Positions 53,597-57,119 are shown, numbered from the stretch's first letter. The stretch is 64,000 nt of DNA from Candidatus Gastranaerophilales bacterium (GCA_944325155.1 CALUYY010000007.1:1-64000), one strand, 5' to 3'. Translations and numbers: made by a program. Notes: generated from the letters alone by a model not told the origin.

Positions 53597-54187
53597 ATGA
53601 TTGAAAATTATAAAAAATATCTGGATTTTATACAGAATAAAATAAACGGTTTTTTTGAAAGACAAAAACCTTATATTTTTTGCAAAAAAGGCTGCTCTCT
53701 TTGCTGCGAGAAGGGGGAGTATCCCTGGTCATATATAGAATATAAATATATAATTGAAGGGTTTTTAAAGTTAGATTTTGAACTTCAAAACAAAATAAAA
53801 GAAAATATAAAAAAAATAAAAGAAGATAAAAAAAATTTTAACGGGGACGGAATTTTTATGCACCAATGCCCCTTTTTAATCGATAAGGTTTGTGTTTTAT
53901 ATGATTACAGGGGAATAATCTGCCGTTCGTTCGGGCTTCTTGTAAACCTTGAAAATAAAAAACCGCAGATTCCTTTTTGTTCTTCTCTGGGGCTTAATTA
54001 TTCAAACGTATACGATAGTGAAAAAAAGATTATATCAAATGATATGTGGAAAAAAACGGGGATTGAAACTGAACCGAAATTATATAACGTAAGCTATAAT
54101 TTTTTAACAAACGACAGTTTTGCCGATGCCTATAATTTTAAATTCGGTGAAAAAAGACCCTTAATTGACTGGTTTGAAGAAATTTAA
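53597..54187 (+). CDS. YkgJ-like cysteine-cluster (zinc/iron-chelating) protein
   Basis: The 196-residue protein has a Cys cluster CKKGCSLCCEKGEYPWS near residues 29-45 and later HQCPFLIDKVCVLYDYRGII plus CRSFG, the YkgJ/UPF0153 pattern thought to bind Zn or Fe-S. Biochemical role is unknown. There is no ribosome site; TTGACT (53559-53564) and TTTAAT (53582-53587) at 17-bp spacing form a promoter nine bases from the ATG. The end overlaps the convergent gene by 27 bp. Confidence 0.82.
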   Translation: MIENYKKYLDFIQNKINGFFERQKPYIFCKKGCSLCCEKGEYPWSYIEYKYIIEGFLKLDFELQNKIKENIKKIKEDKKNFNGDGIFMHQCPFLIDKVCVLYDYRGIICRSFGLLVNLENKKPQIPFCSSLGLNYSNVYDSEKKIISNDMWKKTGIETEPKLYNVSYNFLTNDSFADAYNFKFGEKRPLIDWFEEI

Positions 54188-54934
54188 AAGTTCTTTTTCA
54201 TCATTTATTTTTTTTGTATAAATAATTTCCGCTTTAGACTTTTCAAAATAAGATCTGTAGAAAAGATTGTCATCGGATAAGATTTTTTTATAAATATCAA
54301 CCGGATATGCAATTTTGCATATAGAAGAAGCGGTTCTTGCAATTCTTCCGTAGATTCCTCTTTTGGGGCTTAAGGGGGTTGTGGCGCAATAATCGGGTGA
54401 AAAATAAATTGCAAATTCTTTTAAATTGAGTTCGTAATCATCACACTTTATAATAAAAGTTTCAATTTCTTCACTTGATGAAAGAAAATTTATATAGGGA
54501 TTTGTTTTTGTTTCTATAATTTTTGCGGGATTAAAAATATTTTTTATTTTATCGGTTATTTCGTTTAATTTATATTCGCCCGATACCATTATAATTTTTG
54601 AATTTTTATTTTGTCTTTTATACAGTGTCAGATTTTTTAAAGCGGAATTTATATCATCAATAAGTAAAATAAAATCCGGATTGTTATTTTTAATCAATTT
54701 ATCTTTAAATGAGGATAAAATAAAACCGTTTTTTTCAATTATAAAGCCTTTTATTTTTTGGTTTAAATCCTGTTTATATAAAGAAATATCAGATATAAAA
54801 CAGATTGAATTTTCTTTCAATGTATCATTTGAAAAACATATTTCATATTTTTTATTAAAGATAATATTATTGCTTTTTTTATAAAAAAAGCTTCCGCCCG
54901 TGTTTATTATAATTTCATCTAAATTAAAGAACAT
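54161..54934 (-). CDS. Degenerate Mur-ligase-like protein B (no P-loop)
   Basis: The 257-residue protein follows the MurF domain order: DFILLIDDINSALKNLTLYK as the end of the N-domain, then IIMVSGEYKLNEITDKI where Mur ligases have the P-loop TGSNGKTTTK, and EIETFIIKCDDYELNLKEFA where they have the ViEmG strand. The Gly-Lys-Thr residues are lost, so ATP-dependent ligation is unlikely. The C-terminal domain is short. It is last in an operon behind capA and a second Mur-like gene (16-bp overlap). AGGA precedes the ATG. The Mur relation is inferred from pattern, not from a search. Confidence 0.55.
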   Translation of the reverse strand: MFFNLDEIIINTGGSFFYKKSNNIIFNKKYEICFSNDTLKENSICFISDISLYKQDLNQKIKGFIIEKNGFILSSFKDKLIKNNNPDFILLIDDINSALKNLTLYKRQNKNSKIIMVSGEYKLNEITDKIKNIFNPAKIIETKTNPYINFLSSSEEIETFIIKCDDYELNLKEFAIYFSPDYCATTPLSPKRGIYGRIARTASSICKIAYPVDIYKKILSDDNLFYRSYFEKSKAEIIYTKKINDEKELLNFFKPVN

Positions 54935-56091
54935 AATATTTCATTTTTTCCTATGAATAAACATTTTGTGTCATTGTCTTTTTTATATTCAATAACTTTT
55001 TTTATCGAATTGATTGTATCATCTTTGGCAATTTTAAAATTTACGATTATACTTTTTTTGTTTTTATCTTTTATATAGGGAAGATAATCTTCAAAATCCG
55101 ATAAAACAATAAAATCGAAACTCTCATCCAATAATAATAAAAGTTCAAGGTTGTAATTTTTTATATATTTACCCAAGTTTCTTATTTTTTGAAAAAAGAC
55201 TATTTTTTTATTTTCTTTATACCGGTTTAAAAAATCTTTTATGCCTTTTTTAATCGAATACAGGGAATTTGAGTCAAGAAAAACATAATCTTTATTTTCA
55301 GGCGGTATTACAATTTCAATATATTTTTTATTCAGATATTCAATTAAGCATTTCAGCGGCTCGGGCGTTATTTGAAGATTATTCAGATAAGGAAGCCTTA
55401 TTAAATCGCAATTTTCATCCGAAAAAACCGCCCTCGGACCGTTTGATAAAAGATTGCACCATTCTTCATTATAATTTTCGATTGTTTCATAATTTTGCAT
55501 ATTTCTTATTGAAATTTTAGAATAAAGAATAATCGAACCTTCTTTATAATCCGCTATATATTTTGAACAGCGGGGAACATTTATGTTTGTTTGAATTATT
55601 GCGTATTTATCGTTTTCATCCAGTCTTAAAAGAGGGTCAATTGACATCTGCCAGAAGGTGTCATATTTGATATAATCAATGTTTAAATTTTTTGATAATT
55701 TATATTTTATTTCTTCAATTTCATCCGTGCCTGCAAGAATAATTATTTCCGGGTTAAAATGATTTGCATTTATTTTTGCGATTTTAAACGCCGATAAATA
55801 AACGTTTTTTGTGCAAAGAACGTTTTTCGGGGAATATTTATCCAATATTTTTATATATTCTTTATCATATAAAAATTTTTCATTAATTATAAAACCTTTG
55901 CACAGTTTATTTTGAAGATGTTTTTCAATTTCTTTGAAAAAATTTTTTTCATTTTTTAATGCGGGAATAAAAATATATTCAAAATCTATATTTTTATCCG
56001 AGATTGCAAATTTATATCCCTTATTTTCATCTTCGGTTATGAAAAGTTTCATCCCCGTTAAATCACATATTTCTTTTAGAGTTTTATACAA
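54919..56091 (-). CDS. Degenerate Mur-ligase-like protein A (no P-loop)
   Basis: The 390-residue protein resembles MurE/MurF N- and central domains. FEYIFIPALKNEKNFFKEIE stands for the ALFVALxGxxxDGH motif. PEIIILAGTDEIEEIKYKL lies at the P-loop place, but Gly-Lys-Thr is absent. DKYAIIQTNINVPRCSKYIA stands for the conserved EMG strand region. The last 150 residues (KKIVFFQKIRNLGKYIKNYN onward) are unlike Mur. The start is TTG at 56091, with AAGGTG ten bases upstream, overlapping capA by 16 bp. It may be a non-catalytic partner of CapA, as CapB/PgsB is a Mur-like ligase. Mur relation is inference. Confidence 0.55.
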   Translation of the reverse strand: MYKTLKEICDLTGMKLFITEDENKGYKFAISDKNIDFEYIFIPALKNEKNFFKEIEKHLQNKLCKGFIINEKFLYDKEYIKILDKYSPKNVLCTKNVYLSAFKIAKINANHFNPEIIILAGTDEIEEIKYKLSKNLNIDYIKYDTFWQMSIDPLLRLDENDKYAIIQTNINVPRCSKYIADYKEGSIILYSKISIRNMQNYETIENYNEEWCNLLSNGPRAVFSDENCDLIRLPYLNNLQITPEPLKCLIEYLNKKYIEIVIPPENKDYVFLDSNSLYSIKKGIKDFLNRYKENKKIVFFQKIRNLGKYIKNYNLELLLLLDESFDFIVLSDFEDYLPYIKDKNKKSIIVNFKIAKDDTINSIKKVIEYKKDNDTKCLFIGKNEILCSLI

Positions 56092-57119
56092 ATGAATTCA
56101 CCTTTTTCAATTTTTATTTTATCTTTAACTTCGGGGTTGTTTTCGGATAAATAATTTATTGTTTCATCAATTTCGTTTTCATTTATCACTCTCGGCAACG
56201 GGAGCATTGAGTTGTTCGGAATATAGATAGGGTAGAGATTATTGTTTATTTTAATCTCATTATCTTTCTCATAAAGTTCAATTTCCGCTATCAGATTATA
56301 GGGAACGGGCTTTTTCTTAAAATCTACGGGGAAAAGAAAATTTCCTATGCTGTATAAGATAACTTTGTCTTTATAATATTCCATATTATTCATCATATGC
56401 GGTCCGTGGCCTATAACAATATCGGCGCCCATATCTATAAATTGCCTTGAAAGATTGATTTGGGAAGGAAGCGTTTTTTGAAAATCACTTCCGTAGTGGG
56501 GAAAAATTACAATATATGAGTTTTTATCTTCTTGTTTTATTTTTTTGATATCTTCTCTTAAAATATCCGTGTTAAGGTCAAAAACGCCTTCTTTGTTTTC
56601 TTGTGCATAAAAGTTGTATTCAAGGTCGTATTCTTTTCTGTATATGTATCCGCAGAAAACATAAAGATTTATTTTTTTATTGTTAAATTCAAACGTTTTA
56701 ACAAAGGGTTTTTTTGCATCCGATAAATTTTTTCCCGCTCCGAAATATTTTATGTTTTTTCTCTCCAGAGCATTTATTGTTTCATACAGCCCTTCTTTTT
56801 CATAGTCCATTGTGTGGTTGTTGCCTAATGATACGTATTCTATATTATATTTTTTTAAAATGTCCGGTACAATTAAAGGGTCTGACCAGTGGACAACAAA
56901 TTTTTTATGCTCAAGGCTTGAATTTTGTTTTGTCGTTAAGGGCGTTTCAAGGTTTATAAAATTTATTGCGTCGTTAAAAACGGGTTTTATATCGTTTAAT
57001 AAAAATTCGTAGCCGTATCTTCTTAAAATGCTTGCATGGTATTTGGCGTCATAGCCCTGCTGATAATTTTCGCCAAAGGTAAAATCGCCGTAAAATCTTA
57101 TTTTAAAACCGTTTTCCAT
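56076..57119 (-). CDS. capA: CapA-family metallophosphatase-like protein
   Basis: The 347-residue protein has all calcineurin-like motifs of the PgsA/CapA family: FYGDFTFGEN, FINLETPLT, SLGNNHTMDYEKEG, IFPHYGSDFQ, VIGHGPHMM and LYSIGNFLF. Family members act in poly-gamma-glutamate or other surface polymer formation. No signal or membrane helix is seen at the N-terminus, unlike most CapA proteins, so it may be cytosolic. An extended -10 (TGcTATAAA, 57135-57127) ends seven bases before the ATG, without ribosome site. It leads a three-gene operon with two Mur-like pseudoligases. Confidence 0.88.
   Translation of the reverse strand: MENGFKIRFYGDFTFGENYQQGYDAKYHASILRRYGYEFLLNDIKPVFNDAINFINLETPLTTKQNSSLEHKKFVVHWSDPLIVPDILKKYNIEYVSLGNNHTMDYEKEGLYETINALERKNIKYFGAGKNLSDAKKPFVKTFEFNNKKINLYVFCGYIYRKEYDLEYNFYAQENKEGVFDLNTDILREDIKKIKQEDKNSYIVIFPHYGSDFQKTLPSQINLSRQFIDMGADIVIGHGPHMMNNMEYYKDKVILYSIGNFLFPVDFKKKPVPYNLIAEIELYEKDNEIKINNNLYPIYIPNNSMLPLPRVINENEIDETINYLSENNPEVKDKIKIEKGEFICIKL

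Follow-up and report, generated by a model that had tools for sequence, protein, structure and literature searches.

A CapA-linked gene cassette of Candidatus Gastranaerophilales with a predicted MurF-type pseudoligase and, in one genome, a truncated partner

Mur ligases have been studied as cell-wall enzymes and antibiotic targets, and the roles of their P-loop, catalytic Glu and carbamylated Lys are general knowledge of the family. Proteins of related kind also work with partners: CapA/PgsA works with CapB/PgsB in the poly-gamma-glutamate system, and MurT, which keeps its ATP site, pairs with a glutaminase-like protein. Here we examine three overlapping genes, capA, gene A and gene B, in a 64,000-nucleotide stretch of DNA from a Candidatus Gastranaerophilales bacterium (GCA_944325155.1, CALUYY010000007.1:1-64000; hereafter the window). 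A preliminary description had presented them as an operon for a CapA-type metallophosphatase and two Mur-ligase-like proteins without an ATP-binding loop, and its coordinates, strand and gene order proved correct. Comparison with relatives suggests that the two MurF-like partners differ in kind, A being a conserved pseudoligase and B a ligase disabled in this genome. Both joints of the window operon, capA/A and A/B, are 16-nt overlaps, and its features, numbered from the first letter of the window, are the following.

56076-57119, minus strand: capA, first gene of the operon, 347 aa; CapA/PGA_cap protein of metallophosphatase fold (Pfam, orthologues, motifs and hydropathy)
54919-56091, minus strand: gene A, 390 aa, TTG start; predicted MurF-fold pseudoligase (profile, Foldseek, VIA and clade support)
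55711-55734, minus strand: degenerate P-loop position of A, AGTDEIEE, residues 120-127 (alignment against TGSSGKTT of canonical MurF)
55648-55653, minus strand: A-specific invariant WQ, residues 147-148, in the place of the MurF NHNNEIG motif (nine A proteins)
54161-54934, minus strand: gene B, 257 aa; truncated MurF-like ligase, predicted to be disabled (B profile, identity and VIA)
54560-54586, minus strand: degenerate P-loop position of B, VSGEYKLNE, residues 117-125 (VTGS(I/V)GKT(S/A)T in relatives)

By themselves, window A and B gave no useful match in sequence searches of Pfam, NCBIfam or the PDB; neither matched the NCBIfam MurF model TIGR01143, against which A of two relatives reached 28 and 16 bits (cut-off 288.6). 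A profile built from A and its relatives recovers canonical MurF genes across the class. AlphaFold models of the window proteins, computed from alignments that included the relatives, had a mean predicted local distance difference test score of 80.7 for A and 71.0 for B, the B model leaning on the intact B of relatives in its alignment. Foldseek gave MurF as the top PDB match of both proteins (3zl8 for A, E 1.4e-11; 1gg4 for B, E 5.5e-7), and so did VIA-align, with Z 20.6 and a root-mean-square deviation of 6.5 over 361 residues for A, and Z 13.6 and a deviation of 5.1 over 215 residues, spanning the first domain and some of the middle domain, for B. Aligned against each other with hhalign, the A and B alignments gave 99.7% probability. 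These results establish that the MurF relationship of A and B is real; a chance resemblance to MurF is ruled out by the A-profile search, the structural matches and hhalign. Structure prediction against Mur ligases had been proposed beforehand as a check, and it returned MurF as the best PDB match for both proteins. The MurF domain order attributed to them thus stands as far as the fold is concerned, but not for the whole of window B, which has half the length and no C-terminal domain.

The STDTR and DGHxF motifs of the first domain, which serve the uridine diphosphate (UDP)-linked substrate, are absent from all A and all B proteins; the canonical MurF proteins compared from the class have them. 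The window genome carries a canonical MurF elsewhere (360.7 bits, cut-off 288.6). Because the UDP motifs are lost and a canonical MurF is present, A and B appear to be diverged MurF paralogues with another job, and synthesis of the ordinary cell-wall precursor is probably not among their functions; the same two observations led us to reject the idea that they are spare copies of MurF.

The distribution of the triad was determined in 383 genomes of the family by a CapA search and an A-profile search, and a second draw of the family with a different completeness limit yielded the same sample and no added triads. The CapA search found 12 close orthologues besides the window protein (47-52% identity), eight of which are followed by A and B in the order seen in the window, the genes overlapping or standing apart by just a few bases. 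With the window, the triad therefore occurs in nine of the 383 genomes, in six genera, which bears out the expectation that relatives would keep the three genes together. A-type genes occur in exactly these nine genomes, each with adjacent CapA and B, and the A-profile search found none in the other families of the class sample; since they are confined in this way, A was never seen without CapA and B. Neither capA nor A is found in the other eight sampled genomes of the window's genus, and in the flanks examined around the CapA relatives of cyanobacteria and Fictibacillus no gene resembles A or B.

Gene A is the constant pseudoligase of this arrangement. The alignment confirms AGTDEIEE in window A, as VSGEYKLNE in window B, at the place of the missing P-loop, and for A the loss extends to all nine triad genomes, whose A proteins also lack GKT, the carbamylated-type Lys and the NANP motif. 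The nine proteins share invariant residues, including CKG and WQ, which the window copy keeps as well. Window A scores 163 bits against the A profile, and its 26-34% identity to the A of relatives lies inside the between-relative range. In the tree, A forms one clade (support 100), and the A and B subtrees share their internal topology, which fits co-inheritance of the two genes. A is therefore best described as a conserved MurF paralogue that is predicted to be catalytically dead.

Gene B of the relatives is a different kind of protein. In all eight it is full length (~490 aa), its P-loop is intact, VTGS(I/V)GKT(S/A)T, and it keeps the positions of the catalytic Glu and of the Lys subject to carbamylation in Mur ligases. 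In the three relatives whose B was scanned, Mur_ligase_M scored well over its cut-off, and the best NCBIfam match was MurF (TIGR01143), at 167-225 bits and below its cut-off. Leaving out the MurF-like copy of genome G204, the B proteins of relatives are 43-78% identical to one another, and without the window copy B forms one clade in the tree (support 95). The G204 copy (L049:4490-6034) is intermediate: it keeps the TNxxxxH motif of MurF and the NANL motif lost from other B proteins, and may resemble the ancestor of B. Measured against MurF, A and full-length B are alike in fold and domain order, and the B of relatives also in P-loop, Glu and Lys; they differ in the missing UDP motifs, the below-cut-off scores of B, the missing P-loop of A and the half length of window B. 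Because all eight other triads have a full-length B with these three features, B appears normally to be the catalytic member, disabled in the window genome only. The preliminary picture of CapA accompanied by two pseudoligases consequently does not generalize: the third gene of the eight relatives is full length with a P-loop, and the second gene alone is constitutively P-loop-less.

Window B corresponds to the N-terminal half of its relatives (257 of ~490 aa): it ends inside the middle domain, has no C-terminal domain and lacks the P-loop, the catalytic Glu and the Lys. It was identified as B because of the gene order and because a B profile built from the relatives matches its residues 1-210 (E 1e-7, search space set to 1000). 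It sits on a long branch, and the tree cannot place it; the sample holds no close relative of it. The manner of its truncation is suggested by the flanking DNA, in which two features are relevant.

54161-54187: truncation scar, the final eight residues and stop of B, antisense to the 3' end of the CxxCxxCC gene
53597-54187, plus strand: CxxCxxCC-domain gene, flanking, outside the system and convergent with B (Pfam and genus orthologues)

The protein encoded at 53597-54187 scores 20.1 bits against Pfam CxxCxxCC, below the cut-off of 23, and has orthologues in the genus. Six further genomes of the genus keep the 3' end of this gene, with a similar C-terminus, at sites free of the operon. The neighbour of capA in the window is an aminotransferase gene, which in five genomes of the genus faces TPR-like genes instead (TPR assigned by sequence inspection). 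Because the antisense scar thus lies in sequence conserved at operon-free loci, and because the neighbours of the aminotransferase differ within the genus, B most likely lost its 3' part to a rearrangement at 54187 or immediately before it. The double P-loop loss in the window is then, as judged from the sequence comparison, a derived state of one genome that is linked to the truncation of B.

Whether the remaining half of B is still used bears on a wider explanation, that the operon was a working ligase-CapA system and is now in decay, with the 3' half of B lost, A and CapA to follow, and the pseudoligase pair a snapshot of that process. The cut at the junction with an unrelated gene fits this, as do the patchy distribution of the triad, with its absence from the other eight genomes of the genus, and the divergence of B, which far exceeds that of CapA and A: window B is 23-30% identical to the B of relatives, compared with the usual 43-78%, so that divergence is raised in B alone. 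The composition of B also weighs against a retained product, its GC content at the three codon positions being nearly flat (0.26/0.25/0.21). On the other side, the frame of window B is open and stop-free across 257 codons. When the B of a relative was left to drift in simulation to a comparable loss of identity, none of 300 runs stayed stop-free, and a gentler drift model applied to the B of three relatives left none in 200 runs each. Moreover, CapA and A have diverged normally and their motifs are intact, and the genes still overlap. Because free drift left no stop-free copies, the open frame argues for a retained, if noncatalytic, B product, with the flat codon-position composition leaving decay possible. 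We consider decay of the whole operon unlikely, but far from negligible.

The first gene was described beforehand as a metallophosphatase with intact motifs and no signal peptide, and the motifs and the missing signal were borne out. Window CapA matches Pfam PGA_cap (PF09587) with E 8.6e-55 and 186 bits (cut-off 27) and has its metal-site and catalytic motifs intact: GD (residues 11-12), NLE (56-58), NNHxxD (100-105), H208 and GHxxH (237-241). It has no membrane-like segment (highest 19-residue hydropathy 0.67) and no signal-peptide-like start. Its identity to the eight triad orthologues, 48-52%, lies inside the between-relative range, and it is the sole CapA of the window genome, where A is also single-copy. 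The CapA of the triad is thus, by prediction, a cytosolic CapA-type metalloprotein.

These properties bear on the possibility that the triad synthesizes a surface polymer of the poly-gamma-glutamate kind, CapA and a Mur-type ligase making or exporting an anionic polymer as PgsB/PgsC/PgsA do. Reviews such as PMC5751247 treat the known system. The triad does resemble CapA/PgsA-CapB/PgsB in encoding a PGA_cap protein beside what is, in the relatives, a Mur-type ligase, and a more distant CapA of the family (L053) stands amid glycosyltransferases. It differs in that its CapA has neither membrane anchor nor signal, its ligase is MurF-type rather than PgsB-type, and it includes a dedicated pseudoligase. 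No CapC/PgsC-like membrane gene lies within the operon in any of the nine triad genomes, where it comprises capA, A and B alone (CapC was looked for in the operon, not elsewhere in the genome), and the window operon encodes no protein with a Mur P-loop, hence no PgsB-type catalytic ligase. We regard polymer synthesis as highly improbable. The more distant CapA-like protein, at L053:7649-8884, lies amid several glycosyltransferase-like genes and a UDP-sugar-dehydrogenase-like gene, in what is likely a surface-polysaccharide locus.

The closest PDB sequence to window CapA is MslH (8gq9, E 3.4e-12), a Ca-dependent lasso-peptide C-terminal Trp epimerase of calcineurin-like fold with the catalytic dyads His88/Asp91 and His295/Asp11 (PMC10406935). 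H102/D105 and H241 of CapA align with His88/Asp91 and His295 of MslH, residues that also serve phosphoesterases, and D12 corresponds to Asp11 by motif position only. The two proteins are alike in using a CapA-like fold in the cytosol and in the matched positions of His88, Asp91 and His295. They are unlike in that no lasso-peptide genes were recognized beside the triad and PMC10406935 does not link MslH to a Mur-type ligase; against the model for MslH-type peptide epimerases, NF038314, CapA scores 59.8 bits, far under the 700-bit equivalog cut-off.

CapA also occurs with another partner. In the remaining four close orthologues (G052, G236, G246 and G332), capA is followed by a gene for a radical-SAM protein with C-terminal hexapeptide acyltransferase repeats (domains scanned for G052), and a single 1009-aa fusion protein of the more distant G408 combines the CapA, radical-SAM and hexapeptide domains. 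The loci of this second CapA partnership, for the four relatives and the G408 fusion, are L006:4568-7502, L048, L050, L051 and L052:8065-11091, and we found no published description of it. In a tree of CapA, the genes with a radical-SAM neighbour in the four relatives fall inside the triad group, and the fused G408 protein branches outside it. Because of this nesting, partners appear to have been swapped, in one direction or the other, around a constant CapA.

Based on these comparisons, we lean towards a reading of the cassette in which A and B form an amide ligase, CapA acts on its product, and the ligase step is lost in the window genome. In the relatives, A and B would form a putative heteromer in which B, as the family norm, acts as an ATP-dependent amide ligase on a non-UDP substrate, and A serves as a noncatalytic subunit, either a scaffold or a substrate clamp. 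This role for A is suggested because an inactive paralogue is kept beside an active-looking one in six genera, with overlapping genes and matching trees. CapA would then modify what the ligase has made, either by metal-dependent hydrolysis or, as MslH does, by epimerization. MurT of MurT-GatD offers a parallel in that a Mur-type fold is reused with a partner protein (MurT is among the structural matches); the triad differs in having no GatD-like gene and no ATP site in A. In the window genome the ligase step would be lost, unless another protein supplies ligase activity, and CapA would be left with two noncatalytic MurF-fold partners, either as a pared-down complex that only binds or in an operon that is being lost.

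Several observations weigh against this proposal. The loss of a P-loop is not by itself proof that every activity of A is gone, and the B of relatives, except the most MurF-like copy in G204, has replaced the His of the MurF motif TNxGxAH, which makes the activity of B uncertain. The four relatives that pair CapA with a radical-SAM/hexapeptide protein instead of A-B indicate that CapA is not strictly dependent on A and B, and the cassette is rare (9 of 383) and its surroundings lack recurring pathway genes that would name a substrate.

The two MurF-fold proteins without catalytic residues beside an intact CapA could alternatively be read as a sensor or regulator, A and truncated B binding, without catalysis, either the housekeeping MurF or a precursor of peptide or nucleotide type and switching CapA according to the state of the cell wall. 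A non-wall use of the Mur fold has a precedent in the plant MurE-like protein that is reused in the plastid RNA polymerase (8r6s, among the structural matches). With the UDP-binding motifs lost, binding of wall precursors is not expected, and one of the two partners looks catalytic in all relatives; a sensor is, in our estimate, likewise highly improbable. A more specific form of the ligase proposal can be put forward tentatively: a cytosolic system in which an active MurF-derived ligase for a non-UDP substrate needs a dedicated pseudo-MurF, CapA modifies the product, and the active subunit of the window genome may have become a second pseudo-subunit that is kept.

Other candidate relationships were considered and rejected. 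A role in anti-phage defence or an origin from phage found no PADLOC match and just weak matches to PHROG families of unknown function (CapA and the B of one relative). Plasmid relatives of B all fell below 60% identity, the ten listed being ~22-28% identical and MurF where annotated. Two genomes of genus g2 each have an additional MurF-like gene (L142:7627-9090 and L143:6786-8210) that adjoins pabA/pabB-like genes instead of CapA, scores much lower than true B and is unrelated to the triad. In-frame stops within MurF of genus g10 were an artefact of matches extending into upstream DNA. Outside the system, the window genome encodes two CxxCxxCC-domain proteins (53597-54187 of the window and G000:C17:5022-5603) that are 48% identical; in several relatives within the genus the orthologue of the former lies directly downstream of a glycosyltransferase-like gene, and in the window two genes intervene.

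We found no description of the triad in the literature, and nothing on CapA with a Mur ligase and metallophosphatase or on Mur ligase pseudoenzymes; coverage was partial, so that this is weak evidence of novelty. As far as we found, A beside its working-looking sister would be the first pseudo-Mur ligase of bacteria to have a partner of its own, and the triad would offer a simple two-gene test of reuse of the Mur fold as a noncatalytic subunit. The triad further suggests an intracellular use of CapA, separate from capsule export, in a lineage with little-known biochemistry.

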